The notes under the pieces were generated by a model. It made no database searches, was not told the DNA's origin, and worked only from the letters and a program-made list of their open reading frames with translations. From Shewanella sp. ANA-3 (GTDB lineage: Bacteria > Pseudomonadota > Gammaproteobacteria > Enterobacterales > Shewanellaceae), in the NCBI RefSeq assembly GCF_000203935.1, contig NC_008577.1:4526001-4590000 (forward strand): 64,000 nucleotides of DNA, in the 5' to 3' direction. The position numbers and the translations under genes are program-made. This document shows, piece after piece, positions 18,823-36,625 of this stretch. Within the stretch, counting starts at the first letter, position 1; each line of letters starts with the position of its first letter.

Positions 18823-20913
18823 ATGGCAACAGAAAGACAAATTGAACTTTCTTGGCTTTTACCAGATTTTTCTCATCTAAGTTTTCATCCTCAAACTGGA
18901 ACGGCTTTAAGCAGTTTATTTGTCGCAATAACCTTGACCGTAACATTACTTTTCATAGCTTACCTGCTCTACAAAAGCATTGATGTTGTATTAAAAATCA
19001 ATTGGTTGCAGAAAGCGTTAGAGCCTTTAGAGAGAAAGGATGTTGCTCAAAAGAAGGAGGTGCTCTATCAGTTAGCAAAGTCAAAGAGTAAAGGGAAAAG
19101 TAAAGGAATTGGCTTTTTATGGATGGAATTTGATGAAACTCTTGTCGAAGTTCGAAAGGGCGATCAAATTGAAATTCGCAATACTTTAGATGCAGGACAT
19201 TTTTTCAATACTTACACTCTAGCTAATAGCGTAACAGAAAATCGTCTAATCGCAGCAGTGCCCGGTTTTCTTACAGCACTAGGGGTCATAGGCACGTTTA
19301 TGGGCCTACAACTAGGCTTGGCAGATCTTAAACTCGGTGCAGGTGTTGATGTAACCACAATGCAAGATGGCGTTGCTGGTGTTGTAAATGGGGCTAAAAT
19401 CGCATTTTTGACATCAGTTTGGGGGGTTGCATTAAGTGTATTTTTTAACTTCTTTGAGAAATTATGTGAACAATTCATCCGCTCAAAAATTCGAGAATTA
19501 GAGGATAAAGTCGATTTCCTCTTTCCTAGAGTCCGCCCAGAAGAACAACTTCAAATAATCTCTGAAAATAGCTCTGAATCACGTAATGTCCTTCAAGGAC
19601 TGGCCGAAAAAATTGGTGAAAAGATGCAGGAAGCCATGGTTACGGCTACCCAAGGAATCCAATCAAGTCTCGAAAGTAGTTTGAGCAAGATAATGGCCCC
19701 TGCGATTAATAAGCTGGTTGATGAGACATCTCAAGGTAATCAAAAAGCACTAGAAGGACTTCTAGAAAGTTTTATGGACCGCTTTGGTCAAGCTGGTAAC
19801 CTACAGAGAAGTGCGCTTGATGATGTCTCAAACAAAGTCAATCAATCTGTAGAAGCAATGCAGCTAACAATGAGCAACTTTGTAGAACAATTACAAAAAT
19901 CACAAGCGGAATCGGGTGATAGAGAGAAGGCTCTCATTGCCGATATTTCACATCAAGTTAGTAAGTTGTCTTCCCAATCAGAAGACATCCATCAGAAACT
20001 AACATCCTATGTTGAAAATCAAATAGGCAAGATATCTTCTCAAATGCAAATCAGAGAAGAGGCTTCGGCAAAACGTGACTCAGAATTAGTCAACGTGATT
20101 GGACAACAGGTCAATGAGCTAGTTAATAACTCCAGAAGGCAGGGTGAACTGCTTACCAGTTTTGTCGAAACTCAACTTAACAACCTAACTAAGTCATTTG
20201 ACGAACGAGATAAGCGGTCAACTGAACTCGAAACTACGCGTAACAATAAAATTGAGAAGCAAACCGAAGCGATTGTAAAAATATCTAATGAATTAATAAG
20301 CACTGTAGAGAAATCCGTTTCAGAGCAACTTGCTGCAGTAAAACATCTCGTATCGCAAGGAGAAACCCTTCAAAACAGTGTTAATGCCTCCGTTGAAGCC
20401 GCTGCTCAAGCAACTCAAGCAATGAAAGAATCATCAATTGAACTTAGAGTATCAGCTGATCATATGAGAGTTCTGAGTTCCCACGTAAATGACGCTGGCA
20501 ATAAGCTATCTGGAGCCATCAAGTCAGCTGTAGACAGCACAGCTGACTTGGCGAATCAAAATCAAATTTCAGCACAACGGATAGAGAATGCCCGTGAATC
20601 ACTTATGAAAGATGTTTCACGTTTTAGTGAACTTTCAGACCAAATTAAAGCATTGATTACAAGTGCAAGCAGTACATTCACTGAATTAAAATCAACACAA
20701 AGAGACTTTATCGGCAACTTAAAAGAGGAAGTTGAGAGCCTAAGTCGAAAAATGACAGATATGCTAGAGGAGTATTCTCAACAAGCAAATGGACAAACAG
20801 CAGAACACTTAAAAATCTGGTCCCAATCAGTGACAGATTATTCAACACAAATGAACAGTGCAGTTAAGGCATTGTCTAGTGTCGTGGACGAAATGCAAGT
20901 GAAACTGGGGTAG
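18823..20913 (+). CDS. zorA: ZorA, MotA/ExbB-like stator of type I Zorya
   Basis: 696 residues. Transmembrane helices lie at about 28-50, 144-166 ('AVPGFLTALGVIGTFMGLQLG') and 191-212; the last two form the MotA/TolQ/ExbB domain. From about 240 to the end it is a long, helical, coiled-coil-rich tail. Zorya is an anti-phage system in which ZorA5-ZorB2 forms a proton-driven membrane motor whose ZorA tail reaches into the cytoplasm; tail length and motor domain fit. First gene of zorABCD (gaps 3 bp and about 20 bp, then a 1-bp overlap). Confidence 0.92.
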   Translation: MATERQIELSWLLPDFSHLSFHPQTGTALSSLFVAITLTVTLLFIAYLLYKSIDVVLKINWLQKALEPLERKDVAQKKEVLYQLAKSKSKGKSKGIGFLWMEFDETLVEVRKGDQIEIRNTLDAGHFFNTYTLANSVTENRLIAAVPGFLTALGVIGTFMGLQLGLADLKLGAGVDVTTMQDGVAGVVNGAKIAFLTSVWGVALSVFFNFFEKLCEQFIRSKIRELEDKVDFLFPRVRPEEQLQIISENSSESRNVLQGLAEKIGEKMQEAMVTATQGIQSSLESSLSKIMAPAINKLVDETSQGNQKALEGLLESFMDRFGQAGNLQRSALDDVSNKVNQSVEAMQLTMSNFVEQLQKSQAESGDREKALIADISHQVSKLSSQSEDIHQKLTSYVENQIGKISSQMQIREEASAKRDSELVNVIGQQVNELVNNSRRQGELLTSFVETQLNNLTKSFDERDKRSTELETTRNNKIEKQTEAIVKISNELISTVEKSVSEQLAAVKHLVSQGETLQNSVNASVEAAAQATQAMKESSIELRVSADHMRVLSSHVNDAGNKLSGAIKSAVDSTADLANQNQISAQRIENARESLMKDVSRFSELSDQIKALITSASSTFTELKSTQRDFIGNLKEEVESLSRKMTDMLEEYSQQANGQTAEHLKIWSQSVTDYSTQMNSAVKALSSVVDEMQVKLG

Positions 20914-20916
20914 CCC

Positions 20917-21648
20917 ATGGATAGATTATTTACGCGAGGAAGCACAAAAGTTGATGAAGAAAACCCATATTGGATGTCCTTCTCTGACTTGATGTCTGGG
21001 CTATTAGTGATTTTTATATTAGCAGCCGTAGCCTTAATTATTGAATTAACTCAGAAGTCTGAACAGATTGATGCCAGTATCGAAGAGTTGAAAAAGGCAG
21101 AGGAAGCAAGAAGAAATATCTTAATTGATATCAAAGAGGAATTAGCCAAACAGAATATTCATGTTGAAATCGTTGAAAACGATACAGTACTTCGTATACC
21201 GGAAAGTACATTGTCTTTTGAATCCGGCAAAGATACCTTGCCTGAAAATACGACTGTAAAAAATGAAGTTCGATTGATTGGCATCGCACTACATAAAGCA
21301 ATAACAACAAATGAAAGATGGAAATATCTCGATACGGTATTCGTTGAAGGACATACCGATAGCAATGGCATATGGTACCGAGGCAAAGGGAATTGGGGTC
21401 TTTCAACGGATAGAGCTGTGTCAATTTGGAAGTTGTGGCAAACAGAGATTAATGTAGCTCCCAAATTAAGTGTTCTAACAAACTATAATGGTCAGCTTTT
21501 ATTTTCTGTAAGTGGATATGCAGATACTCGACGAGTTGATTTACAAGAGACAACAGAAGAACAAAGAGCAAGAAACAGGCGAATAGATATAAGATTCACC
21601 GTCAAAAAACCTAAGATTGAAGATTACGAAAAAGCGAAGAATGTTTAA
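20917..21648 (+). CDS. zorB: ZorB, MotB/OmpA-like stator of type I Zorya
   Basis: 243 residues. One N-terminal transmembrane helix (about 20-44) carries Asp24 in 'SFSDLMSG', the position of the proton-carrying Asp of MotB/ZorB. A periplasmic OmpA-like peptidoglycan-binding domain follows (about 85-235): 'FVEGHTDSNG', 'LSTDRAVSIW', 'VSGYADTRR', 'RARNRRIDIRF'. It anchors the ZorA-ZorB motor to the cell wall. It starts 3 bp after the zorA stop. Confidence 0.93.
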   Translation: MDRLFTRGSTKVDEENPYWMSFSDLMSGLLVIFILAAVALIIELTQKSEQIDASIEELKKAEEARRNILIDIKEELAKQNIHVEIVENDTVLRIPESTLSFESGKDTLPENTTVKNEVRLIGIALHKAITTNERWKYLDTVFVEGHTDSNGIWYRGKGNWGLSTDRAVSIWKLWQTEINVAPKLSVLTNYNGQLLFSVSGYADTRRVDLQETTEEQRARNRRIDIRFTVKKPKIEDYEKAKNV

Positions 21649-21668
21649 GCATGTGCGTGGAGCTTACT

Positions 21669-23096
21669 ATGAAATTTTTCCTAAGCGATGAAGCTTATAA
21701 AAAAAATATAAAAATTATGGATAGCCTGACGCTTGAGCAAAAATCTATAGCTAGAAAAGCAGGTACAGGTAATCCTCTCTTTGAAGCTGCGTGGAAAAAG
21801 CTACATACACTTCTGCAACAAAATCGTTTTAAAGACTTCAATATTGAAGATAGATTCGATATTAGAGCTCTCTCCGTTGCACTAACTGGAGATATGAAAC
21901 TACGCCATGGAATAGATATAAGTAGTGCTCTGCTCATCAAAGTTTCAAAGATAATTCCTCATGGCAGCAACCTATTCATAGAATCTCTCCTCCAGTTTTT
22001 CCTTAGCGACTTTAACTTAATAAAAGACCCAAATGCTGTTGGAGCTTGGCTATCTCAGGAGCGTCAGAGAAAAGGGTTAAATAAAGGTCTAGAAGTTAAG
22101 ATTTTTTGTAGTGATGGCCCCACCTTTTTCGCACAGCAAGCGATTAAGAGAAACATAAACTTTGAAGCGCAGGTACATAGTTGGGGGCTGGACGCATACG
22201 CATCAGGTGATTTTATAAAGCAGGCAAAATCAATTTATTTTGTTGAACAATTACAAAAAATCCCTGTGAATGAACCTCATAAATTATTGGAAGAGGTCAG
22301 CAAGCAAGTCATTGCTGAAGGTCGTTACGATGCAGATGATCTTGTAGGACATGTCGCGCTAAGAATTTTGATAGATAGAGCCCCTAGCAAAAATGTACAT
22401 GACAGTTGGAGGGATGCTGTTATTGCCATAGCAGGAGATCCCAGAGTACCAAGATCACATGCACGCTATATAAAGTGGTGGAGCCAGCTTACCTCTCAGC
22501 AGATAAAAAAAGTCCAAGGATGGTTATCCAAACTGGATCTTAAGCTCTTTTTAGAAGCTCTCGAGGACTATTCGATAAGTTCTCGAGATGATGCCATGAT
22601 GCGTATGTTTCCATCTCGCAAACACTTTTTAGAAGGACTGCATGAATCTGGTGCTATTGTTCATACAAAATTATATTTATCAAAAAAAGCATTATTCTAC
22701 GTAAAACGACACTATAAAGCTGAACATATACCAGAATATTCTATTGTTGAAGATGGTGATATTTCCGTTATCTATGCAGAGCTTTCAAACGGTCACATGG
22801 TCGAGGGAAGCCATAACTGTCAAATTTGGTTCTATAAAAAGCTACATGAGTCTGCTCCTGTCTTACAATTTGATAAGCAGAAAAAGACCTACCGCTCATT
22901 GACTCTTGGTCTTAACGAGCAAATGTATCGATATGGCTGTGAAGCATCCGACCACTTCTCTCACTCGCCAGCTAATTTCAGCTGGCAACGACGCGCCTTA
23001 GAAGCCTTAAACAAAATGGGATTAAAGATCAGAGCGTCTGATGTATTAAGTGGAACTGACTATAACCAATATAAAAGGCTCTACGGAGTAAGTTAA
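21669..23096 (+). CDS. zorC: ZorC (EH-signature type) of type I Zorya
   Basis: 475 residues, soluble, no motif I can name with certainty. It is assigned by position between zorB and zorD and by its usual size; family members carry an EH_Signature domain and are cytosolic DNA-binding effector partners. 'HSPANFSWQRRALEALNKMGLKIR' near the C-terminus is the best-defined block. An ATG at 21651 is also in frame, but the one at 21669 has GTGGAG six bases upstream. Its stop overlaps the zorD start (TAATG). Confidence 0.85.
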   Translation: MKFFLSDEAYKKNIKIMDSLTLEQKSIARKAGTGNPLFEAAWKKLHTLLQQNRFKDFNIEDRFDIRALSVALTGDMKLRHGIDISSALLIKVSKIIPHGSNLFIESLLQFFLSDFNLIKDPNAVGAWLSQERQRKGLNKGLEVKIFCSDGPTFFAQQAIKRNINFEAQVHSWGLDAYASGDFIKQAKSIYFVEQLQKIPVNEPHKLLEEVSKQVIAEGRYDADDLVGHVALRILIDRAPSKNVHDSWRDAVIAIAGDPRVPRSHARYIKWWSQLTSQQIKKVQGWLSKLDLKLFLEALEDYSISSRDDAMMRMFPSRKHFLEGLHESGAIVHTKLYLSKKALFYVKRHYKAEHIPEYSIVEDGDISVIYAELSNGHMVEGSHNCQIWFYKKLHESAPVLQFDKQKKTYRSLTLGLNEQMYRYGCEASDHFSHSPANFSWQRRALEALNKMGLKIRASDVLSGTDYNQYKRLYGVS

Positions 23097-26000
23097 TGAA
23101 AAACTGGATTTCATCCTTATTTAGCAGCCGCAATACTAAGTTCAAATTTTCTTATGACATCACTAAAAACAGCATTGATTTCTATTGCCCAGAAAAGCAG
23201 TTTCAAGACATAAAGAAAGGCGATGCTGATGATTTTCTAACAGCACAATACATTGCTTTGCAAATGTTGGCTGAAGAGGGAAGCGCTGAAAGTATTCCAA
23301 ACGGCTTCATAGTTAAACATCAAGTCATTGCAGCACTAGATGAAGATGTCCATCAGCTATTGAACTTACCCGAAATATGGAACGGACAAGCGAATGTCGA
23401 TATCAGAGGTACGACATTCGAAGGTTCCTTCGACGTAACAATACACGTTGATGCACCATCAGGACGAATGACCTCAGCTTACCAAGTAGATGGGAGTATT
23501 ATTTCTTTCGGTAACGCTCAATTCACCTTAAAAAAAGTGATGTTTGATGTGTTCTCCGCATTAAAATTTCATAAAGAGTCATCGAAAAATGAGTCAGAGA
23601 ACCTTCTGTTGTTGCACACGTTTCAGCAAGCTCAGCGCGCTGGGGCGAAGTTATCGTTAAACCACTTCAACAAGTTAGATATTCACGTCCCCGATAAAAT
23701 CACAGTTGAAGCAGAACTTGATAGTGTTGGTAATTTAATCCTTACGCCCCAAATGGGGCAAAAAGCAGATCACGACTCGCTACAACGTGTTTTAGGCCAA
23801 ATTCAGTCAGAGAGAGGGCGAACTCTCAAAGTGGGCAATGAAATAATTCTCTTCAATGAAAAAACGGCTAAAGCCGCAAAAGAGATTATCAGTAATAGAA
23901 CAATTCCAAAATCTCAGGTTAAGAACTTTTTAGAGGCTCCCGGTGCATACCTTGACGCATCTTTAATCGACTTAGATGTTGGTTTTTCCTTACGAGTGAA
24001 AGGTGCTACTCGTTTCAAACACGCATATTTTGGGGAAACAGACGAGTCAGGGATTGATTGGTTTGGACAGAGTCAAGCTTCCTCTCAGATCTTGCCTATA
24101 AGCTCAGTCATCAAGGAGATAAAAACTGACGATGACCGATTACAACTTACTAAAATTCTTAATGATGCTAAAGCAACTGGGGCCACTGAGGTTAAATTTG
24201 AAGGGAAAAACTACGACATTGGAAGCGACAGCGAAGTATATGAAGTACTAAAAAAAATAGAACAAAAACTTATACAGCAAGAAAATACGGAAACCGATGA
24301 GGGAAGAGACAATACTGAGGCTCCCGGACCTCAAGAGAGCGATGACAGCCCTATAGTCATCGACATTGCCCTTAATGATGAGGAGTTAGATAGCCCGTCT
24401 AAGTTAGTTGAAGAAGAGCTTAATAACGTACTTTATAGCCAAGGAATTAGCTGGGATAACTATAGAAGAGAACCATTTCCTCATCAAATAATCGGAGTTA
24501 AGTGGATACTCGGCTTAGAGGAAATCGCACGAAGCAAAGAACTGGTTAATGGCGCCCTACTAGCCGACGATATGGGGTTAGGCAAAACCTTTATGTCTCT
24601 AGCAGCCATTGAACAATATTACTGTATATGTGAAGAGAACGGTGATGTATGCCGTCCTACGCTGATCGTTGCACCACTCAGTTTGCTAGAAAACTGGAAG
24701 GATGAAGTCGCAGAAACATTTCACAAGTCCCCTTTCAAAGACATTGTCATCTTACAATCGGACGGAGAGCTCAATAGCTTTCGAGATGGCGGGATAGAGA
24801 CCAAAGCGTCGAATATTGATGATGAGTCATTTAAGCCTAGATACTCTCTTAAATTCGGTGAGCAGCATGGGGCTGCTCGTTTAGATTTGCCCTGCCGTCT
24901 AGTCATAACTACCTATCAAACACTTAGGGACTATCAATTCTCGCTGTCTCAAATAGATTGGGGGATCGTCGTGTTTGATGAGGCTCAAAACATCAAAAAC
25001 CCTAACGCATTGCAAACTCGAGCAGCTAAAGGTTTAAAAGCTCGGTTCAAGTTATTAGCAACAGGTACACCTGTTGAAAATAGTCTAGCTGACTTTTGGT
25101 GTCTAATGGATACAGCCTGTCCCGGCTTTCTCGACTCCTATCAATCTTTCAGACACACCTATATATCTCCAATCCTTCAAGCGGCTGGCGATGAAATAGA
25201 GTCGGTCAGAGCAAGTTTGGGCAGGAAGTTACGTGAAAAAGTAGGCGCCTTAATGCTTCGTCGCGTTAAAGAAGACAACTTAGAAAGGCTTCCCAAAAAG
25301 AATATGTTTGTAGGGCTGGAACCTACCGAATGGCAGTACGAGCCTAAACTGCATTCGATTATGGATTCCTATCAGCAAAAGGTTTATGAAGGTTCTATTG
25401 AATCCCAACTAGAAAATGAAGAAAGTCATGTTCTTACAACACTAATGCGTATGAGAGATACTTCTCTCCACCCACGTTTGGCTGATGGTGGACGCTTAGA
25501 TGCACCAAGTTCAAAAAATGATTTAAAACAGATATTTGCAGAATCAGCCAAACTTAAAAAAATGATCGAGGTGTTAACAGATATTCAATCAAGACGTGAA
25601 AAGTGTATTATTTTTGCGATAAATAAAAGACTACAGCGTTTTCTGAGTATCGCCTTGGGCAATTACTTTGGACTAGGTCCTTTGCATGTAATTAACGGTG
25701 ACACCAAGGCCGTAGTAAAAAATAAGAATACAGCGAACCGTAAATCAATGATTGCTGAGTTTGAAGCGAAAGAAGGATTCAACCTCATCATTTTCTCACC
25801 GGTAGCAGCTGGCGTTGGCTTAACAGTAGTTGGAGCCAATAACGTAGTTCACTTTGAGCGCCACTGGAATCCAGCAAAAGAAGCTCAAGCAACCGATCGT
25901 GTTTATAGAATCGGTCAGACGAAAGATGTGAATGTCTATGTGCCTATTCTCCATCACCCAACTATCGAATCCTTTGATGTGAATTTACACCGATTACTAT

Positions 26001-26542
26001 CCCAAAAATCCATGTTGAAAGATGCCGTTGTAACTCAGGGCGAAGTTATGCCCAACCCTGCTGGTGCAGACAAACATCAACTTACAGCCGATAGTATTAT
26101 CAATTCAGAAGATATACCGCGTTTGAGCTGGAAACAGTTTGAAGCTTTTTGTGTGGAACTTCTTTCCAAGGAATTCAACGCTGACAGTGCTTGGCTTACG
26201 AAAGAAGGACCAGATTTTGGTGCAGATGGCTTGCTGATTAGTGGCCAAGAAGCCATTTTATTACAAGCAAAACATAAGCAGGGTTCTTACAAAGGGCATA
26301 ATGCCGTTCAAGAGATCTCTAACGCTAAAGCGATGTATGGTAAACATCTCGGACGGCCTATAGGTAAACAAATATTCATAACCAATGCTACGCAGTTAGC
26401 TAAGTCAACGAGAGAAATTGCCCAAGAGTTATCAGTGATAATTATTGATGGCAATGATCTATCAGACCTTTGCCAATGTCACCGAATAAGCTTTGCTCAA
26501 GTTCTTAACCGCCTATCCAAACAACGATATGTAGTTCGTTAG
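23096..26542 (+). CDS. zorD: ZorD, Snf2-type helicase with a C-terminal Mrr-like nuclease domain
   Basis: 1148 residues. The first about 450 residues are a family-specific region with an acidic linker (about 395-435). The Snf2/SWI2 motor follows: Walker A 'DDMGLGKT' near 490-497, 'VFDEAQNIKNP' near 626, 'LLATGTPVENS', and motif VI 'QATDRVYRIGQ' near 940. From about 1010, 'WKQFEAFCVELL', 'DFGADGLL' and 'AILLQAKHKQG' match an Mrr-type PD-(D/E)XK fold (Asp, then QAK). In Zorya, ZorD degrades invading DNA once ZorAB senses infection. Convergent with the hsd operon. Confidence 0.9.
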   Translation: MKNWISSLFSSRNTKFKFSYDITKNSIDFYCPEKQFQDIKKGDADDFLTAQYIALQMLAEEGSAESIPNGFIVKHQVIAALDEDVHQLLNLPEIWNGQANVDIRGTTFEGSFDVTIHVDAPSGRMTSAYQVDGSIISFGNAQFTLKKVMFDVFSALKFHKESSKNESENLLLLHTFQQAQRAGAKLSLNHFNKLDIHVPDKITVEAELDSVGNLILTPQMGQKADHDSLQRVLGQIQSERGRTLKVGNEIILFNEKTAKAAKEIISNRTIPKSQVKNFLEAPGAYLDASLIDLDVGFSLRVKGATRFKHAYFGETDESGIDWFGQSQASSQILPISSVIKEIKTDDDRLQLTKILNDAKATGATEVKFEGKNYDIGSDSEVYEVLKKIEQKLIQQENTETDEGRDNTEAPGPQESDDSPIVIDIALNDEELDSPSKLVEEELNNVLYSQGISWDNYRREPFPHQIIGVKWILGLEEIARSKELVNGALLADDMGLGKTFMSLAAIEQYYCICEENGDVCRPTLIVAPLSLLENWKDEVAETFHKSPFKDIVILQSDGELNSFRDGGIETKASNIDDESFKPRYSLKFGEQHGAARLDLPCRLVITTYQTLRDYQFSLSQIDWGIVVFDEAQNIKNPNALQTRAAKGLKARFKLLATGTPVENSLADFWCLMDTACPGFLDSYQSFRHTYISPILQAAGDEIESVRASLGRKLREKVGALMLRRVKEDNLERLPKKNMFVGLEPTEWQYEPKLHSIMDSYQQKVYEGSIESQLENEESHVLTTLMRMRDTSLHPRLADGGRLDAPSSKNDLKQIFAESAKLKKMIEVLTDIQSRREKCIIFAINKRLQRFLSIALGNYFGLGPLHVINGDTKAVVKNKNTANRKSMIAEFEAKEGFNLIIFSPVAAGVGLTVVGANNVVHFERHWNPAKEAQATDRVYRIGQTKDVNVYVPILHHPTIESFDVNLHRLLSQKSMLKDAVVTQGEVMPNPAGADKHQLTADSIINSEDIPRLSWKQFEAFCVELLSKEFNADSAWLTKEGPDFGADGLLISGQEAILLQAKHKQGSYKGHNAVQEISNAKAMYGKHLGRPIGKQIFITNATQLAKSTREIAQELSVIIIDGNDLSDLCQCHRISFAQVLNRLSKQRYVVR

Positions 26543-26549
26543 ACCGTCT

Positions 26550-26586
26550 AATTGCTGGTGGAGTAAATTCTACACCACCAGCAATT
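26550..26586. terminator. Inverted repeat shared by convergent zorD and the hsd operon
   Basis: A perfect 12-bp inverted repeat aattgctggtgg / ccaccagcaatt with a 13-nt loop. The last bases fall in the 3' end of the minus-strand peptidase gene. No T-run follows, so it may end transcripts only weakly or protect them. Confidence 0.5.
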
Positions 26587-27292
26587 GAGCGTTATCTCGC
26601 AACCACTCTTTACACTCACGGTAATCGGGCATCACCCGCTCAACCTCTTTCCAGAATTGTGGCGAGTGGTCATGATGCAGCAGATGGCAAAGCTCATGTA
26701 CGACAACATAATCAACGATACGGTTAGGTGCTAACACAATCAACCAGTTAAATTCTAAGTCGCCGTAAGGGGTACAACTGCCCCACCGACTTTTAAAGTC
26801 TTTGATACGCACAATCGCCGTGTCTACGCCCACTACCGATTGATAACGGTCTACCTTCTCGCGGATTTTCTTATCAGCGTTGCGCTTATACCAGTGGACT
26901 AACGCTCGGCGCACAAAATGCGCTTGCTTGGCATATTCAGGCACAGTAACGGTAATTTTCCCATCAACCAATTTGGTCGGGCTCACTTTGCCGCTAACGA
27001 CTTTCAAGCGATAGTTACGACCTAAATAAGGGAATGCTTCGCCAGAGACATACTCCTTGCCACGCAATGGCCGCGCCTCCGCATGAATCGCCAACTTTTC
27101 GAGAATCCATTGATGTTTAGCGGCCACCAGCTGGTGGACTTTCTCCGATGACAGCGCTTTGGGCACAACCACAGCAACCACGCCCTCCTCCACTTTAATG
27201 GTGGCGGATTTACGGCGCGAGGTACGTTCAACCCGCACCTCGTAGCCCGCTTGTTTGATTACTTCAATCTCTTGCATCGCGGTGACTGTCAC
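26570..27292 (-). CDS. YgjP-like (DUF45) zinc metallopeptidase at the end of the hsd operon
   Basis: 240 residues. The metzincin/WLM-type site 'VVHELCHLLHHDHSPQFW' (about 194-211) gives HExxH and a third His, and 'KSRWGSCTPYGDLEFNW' is the family's other conserved block. Relatives are often linked with type I restriction genes; their substrate is unknown. The GTG start overlaps the hsdR stop by 4 bp (GTGA); an ATG at 27277 is the alternative. Translational coupling suggests it acts with HsdR, perhaps as a quality-control protease (inference). Confidence 0.85.
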   Translation of the reverse strand: MTVTAMQEIEVIKQAGYEVRVERTSRRKSATIKVEEGVVAVVVPKALSSEKVHQLVAAKHQWILEKLAIHAEARPLRGKEYVSGEAFPYLGRNYRLKVVSGKVSPTKLVDGKITVTVPEYAKQAHFVRRALVHWYKRNADKKIREKVDRYQSVVGVDTAIVRIKDFKSRWGSCTPYGDLEFNWLIVLAPNRIVDYVVVHELCHLLHHDHSPQFWKEVERVMPDYRECKEWLRDNAQLLVV

Positions 27293-30200: not shown

Positions 30201-30450
30201 CCATCAAACCAGCGCATTGCGGGTGCGTCACCATGCGCACCACTTTGCGTAGGTTCTCCTCACTAATCCATGGATTAATCCGCTCAATCGCCTGCGTTAA
30301 GCGCTTCACCAATACCACATCACGCAAGTAATCACGTTCTTGATTACTGTGCTCCGGCGCCAGCGCTTTACCGGGAATATAATGCCAACCTAGCTGGTGC
30401 AGCTGAGCGATGGCGGGTTGCTCTACTTTGTCGAATTCGTTATTGCTCAT
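27289..30450 (-). CDS. hsdR: Type I restriction enzyme, R subunit (HsdR)
   Basis: 1053 residues. The N-terminal nuclease domain has PD-(D/E)XK residues Asp143 and Glu157-x-Lys159 in 'IPDIVCF...VIECKS'. Translocase motor: Walker A 'HTQGSGKS' near 345, 'ADEAH' near 455, 'GFTGTPLL', and late motifs 'DMLLTGFDAP' and 'QAIARVNRNYKGK'. It pulls DNA through the HsdM2S complex and cuts at a distance when sites are unmethylated. It overlaps both neighbours by 4 bp. Confidence 0.95.
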   Translation of the reverse strand: MSNNEFDKVEQPAIAQLHQLGWHYIPGKALAPEHSNQERDYLRDVVLVKRLTQAIERINPWISEENLRKVVRMVTHPQCAGLMEYNHGFYQTMVGYLSVEQDLGKGKKGQTVKLIDFDDVSNNEFICTNQFKVEGTKQTIIPDIVCFVNGLPLAVIECKSPFISTPVVCGIDQLRRYANQRHPEDFEGAEKLFWYNQLMVSTSRDIARVGTISSPAQYYADWKDAYPLTDAQIAQVDSDNVVPLAKKLTVEQPVASVDAAGSELPQVAEPPADYQVAKVTAQQRLLAGMFSRENFLDIVRNFILFEPDDGRLIKKVARYQQFRAVNKVIHQLKTGKTRKDKSGVVWHTQGSGKSLTMVMLAVKMRHDLELKQYKLVFVTDRTQLDEQLSATFQGAQGETVYNADSVAALRDLLKKDSSDLVTAMVQKFQDAEKEAQQQGDKSFVNINTSDKIIVLADEAHRTQFGGLATTINAALPNAPKIGFTGTPLLKTQKMDTAFGGYIDKYKINEAVEDGATVRLLYEGREVKTAVAGESLDALFEEYFGDYTKEEQQEIKRKYGVEKAVREAPARIRWVCIDLLKHYRERIRPDGFKAMIVVGSRHAATLFKKTLDELKAPPSEVIISGDHNDPQYIAQYTDKVHQKKVIANFKKPFGIDSPGTDEKQRKFDNTAFLIVKDMLLTGFDAPIAQVMYIDRKLQDHTLMQAIARVNRNYKGKECGYVVDYYGLTSYLTDALELFSSDDVEGTYQSLKDELPKLQAAHTRLKAFFKGVTSDDVDDYVVVLKDDAFRAQFEVAYKRFAKQLNVILPDASAKPYIPDMTFFGKVHHAARNRYRDDGMDLLDVGEKVRQLVDEHILSTGVDPKIPPVDLLAANFKEHVQKIKSPESKASEIESALKHHININLEDDPEYYRSLSLRLRDIIEKTAGNWERQLELLLEMTNDLSTAHKQAAQNVGLSETEFAFYNILLAEVTRIHDGDMIDEALHEQIKSTTQALVQVLDEATRIVDFFNKEDEIKRMKKKIKRVILDQPFGDKALVATLQDRFVELAKHKFGNK

Positions 30451-31121
30451 GAGGCAACGCCCTGCCCACCAGCAACACGTTCATACTCAGCTTTCGCAGC
30501 GGCAACAGTATCGGTGATATGTTGCTTAACCCGTTCGATAATTTGCTCAACGCCAGCCTCAGACATCAGCTCAGCTAACGAGCATTCGTAACCTGATAAG
30601 AAACAAGGCTCATCATTTTTATCTTTGGCGGGCGTTGGGTTACTGCTGAAGTCAGGGTAGTGAACCCCAGACCAAATATTGCTATACCAACTCTCTTCAA
30701 ACGTTTGATAGGGCGCGCATACCACCACACGCAGTACGCTTTGCGCCTTATCAACCGCTAGCGGCAAATTAAGGGCATCTGGTTCGCTTTTATGCCCATT
30801 ACCATGGCTATCCACCCCAGTATCCGACACTACAATAAACTCAACCAAATAATCGCCAATACGCACCTTGTTATTGGCTAGTTGAAACTGGCTGTAGAGA
30901 TAATGCGAGTTCATCCCCGGCAACAGATCCCATTGCCAATACTCGGTGATATTGCGATGGGTGGCAGGGGTAAGCGCAAAATCAGCATTGCCCCAGTAGC
31001 AAAAGGTCAGTTCAAGCTTGCTCGCCATCTCGGCAATGGTCGGTACTACGCGCTGATAATACGCTGCAATCAAACGGTGGGCGGTACGAACCTGTAATAG
31101 CAGATCATTCACTTGTTCCAT
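30447..31121 (-). CDS. Uncharacterised protein within the hsd operon (224 aa)
   Basis: Not recognised. The frame opens at 31181, but the ATG at 31121 ('MEQVNDLLLQVRTAH') begins within the last 13 bp of the upstream gene, as expected for coupled translation; its end overlaps hsdR by 4 bp. The visible core is aromatic and beta-rich ('LTFCYWGNADFAL', 'HYLYSQFQ', 'LVEFIVVSDTGVDS'). The C-terminal helix is charged. It is inserted, with its partner, between hsdS and hsdR, and so is expressed with them. A modifier or partner nuclease subunit is possible. Confidence 0.7.
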   Translation of the reverse strand: MEQVNDLLLQVRTAHRLIAAYYQRVVPTIAEMASKLELTFCYWGNADFALTPATHRNITEYWQWDLLPGMNSHYLYSQFQLANNKVRIGDYLVEFIVVSDTGVDSHGNGHKSEPDALNLPLAVDKAQSVLRVVVCAPYQTFEESWYSNIWSGVHYPDFSSNPTPAKDKNDEPCFLSGYECSLAELMSEAGVEQIIERVKQHITDTVAAAKAEYERVAGGQGVAS

Positions 31122-31960
31122 GTATTGATATCCTTGAGTGATAGAGGGTGCGCGGCAGTAAACGCCAATAGATCGTGCCACAGGCGTTGAGGCTTTGCCG
31201 TGCCCGCGCGAGCAGGTTGCGCACCGACTTTAGCCAGTGGCTTATCTTGCAATAGCGGCGGCTGCAAGCTCAGGCGCGGTAGCGGGTGGTCGAGTAATGT
31301 CTTCCAGCTGTAGGCCTGTATTTTGAGTTGATATAAACGCGCCGCGTGCAGAATGTCGGCAATAATGCGCTTGTCTTGTTGATTACGCTCGCAGGCGAGC
31401 GCGCCCTTGTCGAGTTCCAATATGTCATTAACAACGGGCTGCCATGCCAAAGCGTTAATACCTGCCAGCTGGCTCTCAAACTCAGTATTGAGCTTTTTAA
31501 TCCAATCATTAACCACCGCACGACTTGGAATACGGCCAATGGCGAGAAAGTACAGCGGTAACTGGCTACGCTCTTCCGCTTGCAGGTAAGACGCAATCTC
31601 TCGCTGCCATTGGTCAATATATTGGTCACCACCTTGCGGCGGTTTGATTTCAAGGATCACCGTTGCACTGGCAAAATTGAGTACCGCATCAGGCTCGACG
31701 CGATTGCGATCATCGCTATTTTCCAGTGAAAAGCTCGGCCAGAAATCAATCTGCTCAAAGTCATCAAACGCTGGCTCAGTCACTCCAAGCCAGCGTTGCA
31801 TTAAGGTCGCTTGTACAGGCGCGGACAGATAGGCAAAGCGACCAAATACCGCCGCCGTCATCAGGTCTTCGCGGCCCTTAAATACCTCGCGCCAGCTTAG
31901 CGACTGCCCTTTGTCGCCGTCTATACGTCCCGCCTTTCCATGGAGAATTGCCTGTAACAT
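31109..31960 (-). CDS. PD-(D/E)XK-like protein within the hsd operon (283 aa)
   Basis: 283 residues. 'RVEPDAVLNF' with Asp91 and 'VILEIKPPQ' with Glu104-x-Lys106 form a convincing PD-(D/E)XK nuclease core. Upstream, 'REDLMTAAVFGRFAYL' (about 30-45) could supply the helical Glu. A C-terminal extension of about 120 residues is unassigned. It follows hsdS after 12 bp and overlaps the next gene by 13 bp. Its presence inside a type I operon that already has an HsdR nuclease is unusual. Confidence 0.7.
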   Translation of the reverse strand: MLQAILHGKAGRIDGDKGQSLSWREVFKGREDLMTAAVFGRFAYLSAPVQATLMQRWLGVTEPAFDDFEQIDFWPSFSLENSDDRNRVEPDAVLNFASATVILEIKPPQGGDQYIDQWQREIASYLQAEERSQLPLYFLAIGRIPSRAVVNDWIKKLNTEFESQLAGINALAWQPVVNDILELDKGALACERNQQDKRIIADILHAARLYQLKIQAYSWKTLLDHPLPRLSLQPPLLQDKPLAKVGAQPARAGTAKPQRLWHDLLAFTAAHPLSLKDINTWNK

Positions 31961-35117: not shown

Positions 35118-35792
35118 ATGTTGCAATGGAAAAGGACTAAAGCCGTTAAAGGTCAAAAACCGCTCTACACATTTGAAGAAATTAGTGATTCAACACTGCG
35201 GGTAACTCGTGATAATGATGGGGAAATTTTTGTTAGAGACTTCTCTATTGGGGACCGCTTCATTACATACGCCAAACTCAAAGTTGAAATGGAGTCTTTG
35301 AACCCTAACGGTGGTAGCGAGGAAAGCGGTTACTACTTAATTGTGAGAGAAGTTACCTCAAGTGGCACAGGAAAGAAAACCGACGTCAGCGCACAAAACC
35401 AAATCGACAAACTATATTTTGGGCAAGTAGATAACGAGGAATTCAAATCTCCACAAGAAGTAGATGATGGCGAAGTGTATACAGAAGGTTCAGTTAAGCG
35501 AGTACTTGTAAATAAATACGAAAGAGACGCTAAGGCAAGAAAAGCTTGTATTGCGCACCATGGGTGTCAGTGTAAAGTTTGCGGGTTCAACTTTTCAGAA
35601 ACATATGGCTTGCACGGTGAAGGTTTTATTGAGGTACATCATATAACACCGCTCAGTACAATAAGTAAAAGCTATCAAGTCGATCCAATTAACGACCTAA
35701 TTCCTGTTTGCTCGAATTGTCACTCTATGCTCCATCGCGGAAAAGAGCCATTAAGTATCGATGAGCTAACAAAGTTAGCAGATAAAAATTAG
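35118..35792 (+). CDS. HNH endonuclease domain protein (McrA-like)
   Basis: 224 residues. A distinct N-terminal domain (about 1-110, no family recognised) is followed by an HNH zinc-finger nuclease: 'CQCKVCGFNF' near 150, 'FIEVHHITPLS' near 171 (catalytic His pair) and 'LIPVCSNCHSMLHRG' near 195. The two CxxC pairs bind structural zinc, as in McrA-type modification-dependent nucleases. Divergent from hsdM across 150 bp. Possibly acts on modified DNA, with the N-terminus as reader (inference). Confidence 0.8.
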   Translation: MLQWKRTKAVKGQKPLYTFEEISDSTLRVTRDNDGEIFVRDFSIGDRFITYAKLKVEMESLNPNGGSEESGYYLIVREVTSSGTGKKTDVSAQNQIDKLYFGQVDNEEFKSPQEVDDGEVYTEGSVKRVLVNKYERDAKARKACIAHHGCQCKVCGFNFSETYGLHGEGFIEVHHITPLSTISKSYQVDPINDLIPVCSNCHSMLHRGKEPLSIDELTKLADKN

Positions 35793-35827
35793 AAAGATCC
35801 CTTGTGGCAATGAATAGTGGAGAAAGT

Positions 35828-36625
35828 ATGAGCTTTAGCAAGGATGTACAAAAGCAGTTAGGGCACTACGTCTATGCGTTAGTCGACCCTAGAGATGAGA
35901 CAATTTTTTATGTTGGTAAGGCGTCAGCTAACAATCGCGCGTTTAACCATCTTAAATCATCCAAAGATGAAACTGGCGGTAAAGGCAGTAAAAATCATCT
36001 CATTGCAGAAATAAGGAGTTTCGAATTAGAGCCTAGGGTAGATATCATCCGCCATGGTCTTATAGACGAGCAAACGGCATTTGAAGTCGAAGCTGCGGTG
36101 ATTGATGCCTTAGGACTAGAAAATCTCACTAACGAAGTGCTTGGACATAATATCATAAGAGGTAGGCAGACTAGTGATACGCTTATTAGGAGGTATGGTG
36201 CTGAGGCAATTTCTGTTACAGAACTCGAAACCAACGTGATTGTGTTCTACTTGAATGGAACCTATCACCCATCACTGAGTGAGCAGGCCCTTTATGACGC
36301 AACCCGTCAATACTGGGGAGTAAGTCTAGAACGTGCAAATAGTAAATATGAAGATGGCAGCTTAGTTTATCCTATCGCTTTAGCAGTAGTTGATAGTATT
36401 GTTGTTGGTGTATTTGATATTGTCCAATGGTTCCCTGCTGGGACAACTTACTCTAGTCGTTCGTCCAAAGTACGAAATACTGACGAGCCCGAAAAAAAGA
36501 CCAAGGCAGAATTTATTGGAATGCCCAATCACAACAGTCCACTACTCCAAAAGAAATTGTTAGATGTGGATAACACACCATTGGTAGCTAAACAAAATGG
36601 CTTCCAATATTTCGATGTGTACTAA
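35828..36625 (+). CDS. GIY-YIG nuclease domain protein (LEM-3-like)
   Basis: 265 residues. The N-terminus has the GIY-YIG signature as 'YVYALVDP...IFYVGKA' (about 14-32) with an Arg shortly after ('NNRAFNHL', near 37) and a later Glu ('VEAAVIDALG'). The C-terminal half (about 130-265) is not recognised. The ATG at 35828 is chosen over 35804 because GGAGAAAGT lies directly before it. It follows the HNH gene after 35 bp, so the pair is likely one transcript; last gene before attR. Confidence 0.78.
   Translation: MSFSKDVQKQLGHYVYALVDPRDETIFYVGKASANNRAFNHLKSSKDETGGKGSKNHLIAEIRSFELEPRVDIIRHGLIDEQTAFEVEAAVIDALGLENLTNEVLGHNIIRGRQTSDTLIRRYGAEAISVTELETNVIVFYLNGTYHPSLSEQALYDATRQYWGVSLERANSKYEDGSLVYPIALAVVDSIVVGVFDIVQWFPAGTTYSSRSSKVRNTDEPEKKTKAEFIGMPNHNSPLLQKKLLDVDNTPLVAKQNGFQYFDVY

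Follow-up and report, generated by a model that had tools for sequence, protein, structure and literature searches.

A Shewanella type I restriction operon carries a probable anti-phage gene pair of the PDC-M15 candidate family in its hsdS-hsdR slot

Two overlapping genes lie between hsdS and hsdR

We analyzed a 64,000-nucleotide stretch of Shewanella sp. ANA-3 DNA (the window), in which the open reading frames give the gene order hsdM-hsdS-A-B-hsdR, with every gene on the minus strand. The HsdM, HsdS, and HsdR frames have type I family matches in Pfam or NCBIfam. The hsdM frame (34979–33243) matched N6_Mtase (1.3e-107) and HsdM_N (4.8e-32), and hsdS (33250–31973), the upstream border of what we call the cargo slot, matched Methylase_S (2.3e-31). 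The downstream border, hsdR (30450–27289), matched NCBIfam hsdR at 1.6e-162; the best PDB sequence match of its product was the HsdR subunit of EcoR124I (2e-35, residues 286–612). Directly after hsdR comes a YgjP-like metallopeptidase gene (27292–26570, minus strand; Pfam YgjP-like, 6.9e-64), and a divergent HNH gene lies only 138 bp from the hsdM frame.

Gene A (31960–31109, minus strand) encodes 283 amino acids from an ATG, and gene B (31121–30447, minus strand) encodes 224 amino acids, also from an ATG; AAGGA precedes both start codons, and an alternative GTG reading of B is longer, at 244 amino acids. An earlier sequence-only reading had placed two extra genes here, with a 12-bp gap and overlaps of 13 and 4 bp, and our coordinates agree: 12 bp (31972–31961) separate hsdS from A, A and B overlap by 13 bp, and B and hsdR overlap by 4 bp. 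Because of these overlaps, A and B are very likely co-transcribed with the type I operon. The pair shares a GC content of 48–53% with hsdR and hsdM, so a recent insertion is not visible here.

The pair is already catalogued as candidate PDC-M15

A and B are adjacent genes that match the PDC-M15A and PDC-M15B models of PADLOC-DB 2.0.0, a two-gene phage defense candidate. PDC-M15A matched A at 1.6e-88 over residues 1–283, and PDC-M15B matched B at 4.2e-92 over residues 1–215; no other PADLOC system matched either protein at E values up to 1. We rejected the idea of a new, unlisted pair, as PADLOC already has both proteins and the pair is catalogued there. PDC-M15 was not found by name in the literature searched; most PDC systems await experimental validation, according to a published account (PMC12988326). 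No Pfam or NCBIfam family was assigned to A, and a Pfam search with B returned PNGaseA alone (E 0.13). Across Pfam, NCBIfam, and PHROGs, no match of either protein or its relatives approached a curated cut-off, the best being 0.0067 for a single relative of B, and a PDB sequence-profile search with A and B gave chance-level matches only.

We collected 25 loci carrying the pair: eight between hsdS and hsdR, five with some other linkage to type I genes, and 12 with no hsd gene detected by blastp within stretches of 5.7–21 kb. Two weak family matches had been dropped as false before counting, one in G174 (E 6e-4), read as TnsA-like, and a second match in G260 (E 7e-4) with a stop inside. As the genome draws used one of six PDC-M15A models, or our own alignment, the counts are lower bounds. 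A B-profile match directly followed A in 20 of the 25 loci, and nine of these 20 are in the profile's own alignment; because named PADLOC profiles match both proteins and B follows A so regularly, the pairing is more than chance. By its own terms, the sequence-only reading would be refuted by a pair occurring mainly away from hsd genes. That is nearly so family-wide (12 of 25 loci; the genome draws gave 8 of 13) and not so in the scan for close relatives (3 of 10).

These contexts bear on a PrrC-like guard, in which HsdMSR would silence the pair and the pair would fire once a phage anti-restriction protein inactivated HsdMSR. Its position within the operon and its linkage to a type I operon, as for PrrC, make such an anti-escape role, which the sequence-only reading had also raised, possible by analogy. 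However, the loci without hsd genes do not show the invariable linkage of the PrrC type, and the pair also adjoins type I operons of other layout (R-M-S in Aeromonas, M-S-R in G435), and we rate the guard as quite unlikely.

Searches with A as query found no match in phages (tblastn) or in viral contigs, so the evidence for a conflict with phages is purely contextual. A blastn search with the pair found none in E. coli genomes at a sensitivity of about 65–70% DNA identity or more; the E. coli pair at L068 (a PD-(D/E)XK protein and a 215-amino-acid protein) fell outside the A and B profile matches.

A is a candidate PD-(D/E)XK nuclease and the B model a borderline match to chaperone folds

The PD-(D/E)XK signature consists of a catalytic D and an E-x-K, plus an acidic residue upstream. 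In A, it is present as D91, E104, and K106 with the upstream E31. We aligned A from 21 of the 25 loci, with two near-copy pairs among them; the other four were omitted because A runs into a contig end, is truncated, has a shortened end next to a decayed B, or carries a stop. Every one of the 21 homologues keeps the three residues named in the sequence-only reading, D91, E104, and K106, along with E31, D32, T35, F39, W74, E89, P90, Q117, and W173. The N-terminal A4 and K9 are invariant too (21 of 21), within a consensus of M-L-x-A-I-L-H-G-K, a peptide that the single-chain model places without confidence.

The nuclease core of the A model has a pLDDT of about 90. On a scale where Z scores of 7–8 are common without kinship, the model matched BspD6I (VIA Z 8.9; 4.7 Å, 145 aligned residues), FokI (VIA Z 8.6; 3.4 Å, 126 aligned), and AF1548 (VIA Z 8.6; 2.9 Å, 113 aligned), with a best Foldseek E of only 1.7e-3. 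Nearly all of the first twelve structural matches are known nucleases. The defense nucleases SduA, LmuA, Can2, and McrC are among the matches, together with unrelated proteins such as acetyl-CoA carboxylase (Z 6.0) and a viral RNA polymerase subunit (5.9). Motif and model thus predict A to be a candidate PD-(D/E)XK nuclease, and on these grounds the earlier suggestion of a second nuclease can be kept, as a prediction.

The B model is alpha/beta (pLDDT 78.5, pTM 0.78). It resembles the type III secretion chaperones SchA, SycT, and ExsC at a borderline VIA Z of 7.8 (for SchA, 3.3 Å over 104 aligned residues) and YbjN/DR1245 at a similarly borderline VIA Z of 7.4; its best Foldseek E was 0.27, and the best in a viral structure library was 0.032. 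Its 50 structural matches comprise 18 type III chaperones or their complexes, four YbjN/AmyR/DR1245 proteins, 22 actin-capping-protein chains, and six others.

The slot between hsdS and hsdR differs in content among sister operons

Sister operons, with HsdR 64–76% identical, have the slot empty or filled with Septu, AbiE, or PDC-S26. It is empty in G168, holds Septu PtuA/PtuB in G259 (1.7e-145 and 4.8e-80), a 469-amino-acid protein with PDC-S26 in G182, and AbiE in V. casei; none of these four operons had an A or B profile match, and the YgjP-like gene is kept regardless of slot content. By layout and by profile search, the pair is absent from L054, L055, L056, and L063. Slot contents in E. 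coli were inspected at 4 of 380 places. Embedding of genes at this junction is known from earlier descriptions.

Two plasmids show an exchange in the slot: Fic plus A-B in V. rumoiensis and Fic plus AbiEi-AbiEii in V. casei, with 94–96% DNA identity on both sides and a left junction four bases before the A start codon. Such near-identical operons with swapped cargo support the hsdS-hsdR junction as a docking site for exchangeable defense modules.

A role within the type I enzyme, as accessory subunit or modifier and second nuclease of the complex, would fit the embedding and the 4-bp overlap of B with hsdR. However, sister operons do without the pair and hsd-free pairs exist, so we consider this role very improbable; a type I subunit was rejected given a slot that is empty or refilled in sister operons. 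The same observations, including the empty slot of G168 and the 12 loci where blastp detected no hsd gene, do not support a general protection from methylation loss, which was part of the earlier functional proposal.

Parts of B seem to be exchanged without a matching change in the core of A

Both genes are under purifying selection, with dN/dS values in three near-copy pairs of 0.17–0.18 for A and 0.08–0.19 for B. Loci of like genomic context group together on the tree of A: context changes 5 times, whereas shuffling gave a mean of 9.2 changes and a value as low in 0 of 200 shuffles, so embedding is partly inherited. The tree of 21 A proteins (4 of 18 inner branches starred) does not show interleaving of embedded and unlinked members; one unlinked member, L032, does group with five embedded members, in a fork that is open (94/99). 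Diverged alleles replace stretches of B without a matching change in the core of A, and recombination seems to replace parts of B. Divergence of the C-terminal half of A did not correlate with divergence of B among 21 locus pairs (rho 0.11, p 0.64).

A toxin-antitoxin or addiction system, in which a toxic nuclease A and an antitoxin B mainly serve to stabilize the restriction island or, on loss of B, to bring about abortive infection, is a serious possibility that we nevertheless lean against. Consistent with it, A and B overlap in conserved order, the slot elsewhere holds AbiE and, in E. coli, DarTG2, and V. litoralis has a stop-broken A beside an intact B. By contrast, G278 has A complete through the nuclease core beside a B in pieces, which is awkward for lethality of A by itself, and swapped stretches of B with an unmatched A core are unexpected in a tight cognate pair. 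This explanation overlaps with the one we favor, and the two are not exclusive.

A self-contained module is the probable explanation

We consider the PDC-M15 candidate pair A-B to be probably a self-contained anti-phage module of two genes that occupies the hsdS-hsdR cargo slot, on the basis of the conserved pair, the intact motif, the loci without nearby hsd genes, and the sharp-edged swap with a toxin-antitoxin system at the same site. In such a module, A may be a metal-dependent, DNA-cutting effector, and B would bind A, perhaps by its conserved first helix, and control it. Infection would be sensed by a variable surface on B; A would then be freed or aimed, and DNA cutting would stop either the phage or the cell it infects. 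The pair and the type I enzyme would share an operon without forming a single enzyme. We infer the role of B, as inhibitor or recognition subunit, along with the trigger and target of the pair.

A more specific version, which we advance tentatively and regard as unlikely, is that B acts as a clamp, similar to type III secretion chaperones, on the highly conserved N-terminal peptide of A, that a phage client frees A by competing for the clamp, and that parts of B (in one lineage, the C-terminal half of A) are swapped between strains as alleles. Strains would then differ in what they sense because these alleles are exchanged, much as hsdS recognition domains are. An infection-sensing clamp role for this chaperone fold was not found in the literature searched. 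The clamp-and-client logic resembles CmdTAC, in which new capsid protein pulls the chaperone CmdC off the complex (PMC11618068). As DR1245, of similar fold, binds an SSB-like protein (PMC3575483), phage SSB would be a first candidate client of B.

Intact catalytic residues, a natural AbiE swap, and a fold lead for B make this candidate PDC-M15 pair testable, and allele exchange in and around B hints at which part may face the phage.

Comparison with known systems

Both proteins match the PDC-M15 models over nearly their full length and do not differ from them at the family level; the Shewanella pair is a member in a type I slot, whereas there are other members without hsd genes in their surroundings. 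The B model is like DR1245/YbjN and the type III chaperones (Z 7.4–7.8, with no sequence similarity found), but B is longer than these and paired with a nuclease gene.

Rpn proteins are PD-(D/E)XK proteins. They are described as toxin-antitoxin systems against phages in which the small C-terminal proteins vary strongly (PMC10327210). The Rpn antitoxin is encoded inside the toxin gene, whereas B is a separate gene.

The type I enzyme linked to PrrC keeps it silent, and PrrC becomes active once Stp of phage T4 neutralizes that enzyme (PMC2610378). PrrC/EcoprrI resembles A-B in the linkage of an effector gene with a type I operon. PrrC, however, is an anticodon nuclease that has ABC ATPase motifs, and its linkage to type Ic systems is described as invariable, which that of A-B is not.

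TgvAB, a restriction module, consists like A-B of two genes embedded in a type I operon, that of V. cholerae VPI-2, and it defends without HsdR restriction activity (PMC11411939). TgvAB alone gave 10- to 100-fold less protection against several phages than the whole cluster (PMC11411939), so such a pair may depend in part on the operon around it. TgvAB is related to the GmrSD family, whereas A and B have no such Pfam match, an absence that is no proof.

In the EPEC RRDM island, an E. coli type I operon holds DarTG2 between its hsdS and hsdR genes and is followed by an M48-family gene (PMC12255303). It thus shares with the A-B operon the same slot and a metallopeptidase gene after hsdR. Unlike A-B, its cargo is an ADP-ribosylation toxin-antitoxin pair, and it has the regulator rptR upstream, where the A-B operon has the divergent HNH gene.

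The type I operon in the window

The type I operon lies on the minus strand, where hsdM (34979-33243) and hsdS (33250-31973) are followed by gene A (31960-31109; PADLOC PDC-M15A, 1.6e-88), gene B (31121-30447; PDC-M15B, 4.2e-92) and hsdR (30450-27289), with type I family matches for the three hsd genes and a YgjP-like gene (26570-27292, minus strand) directly after hsdR. The reading frames reproduced exactly the junctions given in the sequence-only reading: a 12-bp gap between hsdS and A, a 13-bp overlap of A with B and a 4-bp overlap of B with hsdR. AAGGA precedes the ATG of both A and B, and the Shewanella sp. ANA-3 genome (5.25 Mb, two contigs) contains a single A match. A complete type I Zorya system (ZorA-ZorB-ZorC-ZorD, 18823-26542, plus strand; PADLOC 2.3e-254, 4e-107, 2.1e-205 and 0) meets the restriction operon tail to tail, which makes this region a defence island. 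Divergent from hsdM, within 35118-36625 (plus strand), are genes for an HNH nuclease, with a weak type IV-like PADLOC match (1.1e-7), and for a GIY-YIG protein that matches PD-T4-3 (5e-34).

Neither A nor B matched a further PADLOC system at E up to 1, or a significant family in Pfam, NCBIfam or PHROGs. The PDC-M15A model also matched in the archaeon Methanosarcina acetivorans, a control genome, so the family may be broad.

Cargo between hsdS and hsdR

Searching with HsdR instead of A, we found five operons of the same subfamily in the first genome draw (295 genomes; HsdR 67-100%). The slot between hsdS and hsdR held A-B in the window, A-B accompanied by a 411-aa gene and by an insertion element in G118, Septu PtuA/PtuB in G259 (1.7e-145 and 4.8e-80) and a 469-aa protein with PDC-S26 in G182, and it was empty in G168. 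In four distant type I operons of E. coli (4 of 380 places), it held a YecA/YgfB-family gene, that gene with a cold-shock-domain gene, or nothing (two cases). Proteins of 409-469 aa recur in the slot (L018 13989-15224, L029 8090-9397, L030 8246-9475, L055 7755-9164); with 25-33% mutual identity and no match in Pfam or PADLOC, they are a family of unlisted candidate cargo.

The same HsdR search among plasmids yielded two operons (60-80% identity), with a Fic gene plus A-B in Vibrio rumoiensis and Fic plus AbiEi-AbiEii in V. casei. Their DNA is 94.3% identical in hsdM, 95.5% in the part running from within hsdS to the end of Fic, and 95.4% between a point just short of hsdR and the end of the YgjP gene; the cargo and one stretch within hsdS fail to align. 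On the left the junction falls 4 bases ahead of the A start codon, on the right about 45 bp upstream of hsdR. One cassette, A-B or the toxin-antitoxin module, has thus been cleanly exchanged for the other at this site, whichever came first.

In all 12 close operons (the window, L011, L018, L027, L029-L031, L033, L054-L056 and L063), the one with the empty slot included, the gene after hsdR encodes a YgjP/SprT-like metallopeptidase; an M48-family gene takes this position in three of four E. coli regions. By analogy with ClpXP in restriction alleviation, the YgjP/SprT-like enzyme might act on HsdR. Upstream of the Vibrio salinus operon (L027, 104-7028) are a 1293-aa protein, which we take from its sequence to be reverse transcriptase-like, and a second, HsdM-like protein of 823 aa (46% to HsdM).

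Occurrence of the pair

We compiled 25 distinct A-carrying loci from the window, 13 genomes, ten contig-scan loci and two plasmids (L035 being the G260 contig). The genomes came from overlapping draws of 295, 398 and 369, the first two queried with one PDC-M15A model and the third with an alignment built here; two weak matches were dropped as false. A-B lies between hsdS and hsdR in 8 of 25 loci (the window, G118, L011, L027, L029, L030, L031 and L033) and is otherwise linked to type I genes in five: behind R-M-S in Aeromonas L034 and L035/G260, behind M-S-R in G435, as M-S-A-B at a contig end in G847, and in G790 as a shortened A beside a piece of hsdM. The other 12 (G028, G086, G149, G232, G278, G314, G454, G981, L028, L032, L036 and L012) had no hsd gene by blastp with nine Hsd queries over 5.7-21 kb; they include the near-copies L036 and L012, the latter counted after one short frame with a partial HsdR match was set aside. 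Slot, otherwise linked and hsd-free loci numbered 1, 4 and 8 in the genome draws (n = 13) and 5, 2 and 3 in the close-relative scan (n = 10). The pairs with no hsd gene in the stretch searched cannot be accounted for by a guard that, like PrrC, depends on the type I enzyme.

A B profile match directly follows A in 20 of 25 loci, nine of which are in the profile's own alignment; three others have an unmatched 191-248-aa frame in that position, and G278 has B in pieces. In L028 the pair adjoins what we read as ParA/ParB-like genes. In L061 (1962-3547, minus strand) a piece of hsdM precedes two small genes, presumably HepT- and MntA-like, and a shortened A, possibly marking another toxin-antitoxin pair in or near the slot.

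Predicted structures

We aligned 21 A homologues, including two near-copy pairs and omitting four cut, shortened or broken copies. Invariant in all 21 were A4, K9, E31, D32, T35, F39, W74, E89, P90, D91, E104, K106, Q117 and W173, among them the Asp91, Glu104 and Lys106 on which a nuclease-like protein had been proposed. The AlphaFold2 model of A (10-row alignment) had a mean pLDDT of 73 and a core near 90, with low confidence in parts including residues 1-14 and 225-259. Foldseek returned nothing under E 1e-3. A second structural comparison gave BspD6I nickase (Z 8.9), AF1548 and FokI (8.6), McrC (7.1) and the defence proteins SduA of Shedu (7.0), Can2 (6.9) and LmuA of Lamassu (6.5); unrelated proteins, for example acetyl-CoA carboxylase (6.0), appear lower in the ranking. 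A predicted PD-(D/E)XK DNA nuclease is the sound reading of A.

The B model (pLDDT 78.5, pTM 0.78) consists of a beta domain with long helices at the start and end of the chain. Its top Foldseek row, DR_1245 (E 0.27), was level with an unrelated protein, and YbjN and AmyR were among the rows after it. The second comparison gave SchA, SycT and ExsC (Z 7.8) and YbjN and DR1245 (7.4); its 50 rows comprised 18 type III secretion chaperones or complexes, four YbjN/AmyR/DR1245, 22 actin-capping-protein chains and six others. Because Z values under 8 may reflect merely a common arrangement, this likeness to type III secretion chaperones and YbjN is a lead to the fold of B rather than a membership. 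DR1245 is described as binding the SSB-like DdrB (PMC3575483).

Variation, selection and proposed mechanism

Median identities among seven embedded loci (21 pairs) were 83% for HsdM, 80% for HsdR, 64% for YgjP, 51% for A, 38% for B and 34% for HsdS. Shewanella L029 and L030 share 97-98% in HsdM, HsdR and YgjP, 59% in A (89% over residues 1-130, 28% in the C-terminal half) and 37% in B. In two near-copy pairs, B was far ahead of A in synonymous divergence: 0.66 for B versus 0.17 for A in L012/L036, and 0.60 for B, 0.13 for A, 0.19 for HsdR and 0.24 for HsdM in Aeromonas L034/L035. The L034/L035 DNA is mostly >90% identical across A and the opening portion of B, about 65% in mid-B and 86% near its end; along B in L012/L036, identity is uneven (68-93%) with no single step, and L011/L031 showed no comparable jump. 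From the excess B divergence and the local drops in identity, we read repeated replacement of alleles in B, with one case in the C-terminal half of A, in three of four close pairs, one of them less clear. The dN/dS in three near-copy pairs was 0.17-0.18 for A and 0.08-0.19 for B, so both genes are maintained; one of the six A copies, that of L031, has a stop. The best-conserved 15-residue blocks in the embedded loci were A 1-15 (85%), A 31-45 (82%) and B 16-30 (81%), from which we infer the A N-terminus and the first helix of B as a candidate interface.

We propose that A-B is an autonomous nuclease module carried by the type I operon without belonging to the type I enzyme, in which A would be the effector nuclease and B its controller and probable sensor. 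B may either aim A or, as in a toxin-antitoxin arrangement, inhibit it, and the odds of the two overlap. Two observations lean slightly to a recognition role: the allele replacement in B, and G278, where B has decayed although the core of A is complete. Others lean to a toxin-antitoxin arrangement: AbiE and DarTG2 occupy the slot elsewhere, and in V. litoralis a stop interrupts A but B is intact.

Comparison with known systems

PDC systems are putative, derived from 'guilt by embedding', and most await validation (PMC12988326); the preprint behind them is cited elsewhere as Payne et al. 2024. Certain PDC-M candidates have now been identified with systems described in the literature, Septu and Dodola among them, and PDC-M15 is absent from those listed in the text available (PMC11811056). 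Among 5.39 million papers searched, none names PDC-M15; given the PADLOC listing, the pair is known by name, a listed family of embedded defence candidates with no tested function found in the literature searched. Three points did not appear in that literature, with searches not aimed exactly there: the tentative fold lead for B and two modest ones, the allele replacement and the one-site exchange of A-B with AbiE. The slot has been described as a site for defence genes, and perhaps a recombination hotspot, with DarTG2 in EPEC (PMC12255303). In V. cholerae, TgvAB defends without HsdR restriction activity, and tgvAB alone protects 10- to 100-fold more weakly than the whole cluster against several phages (PMC11411939). 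Like DarTG2 and TgvAB, A-B occupies the defence-gene slot of a type I operon.
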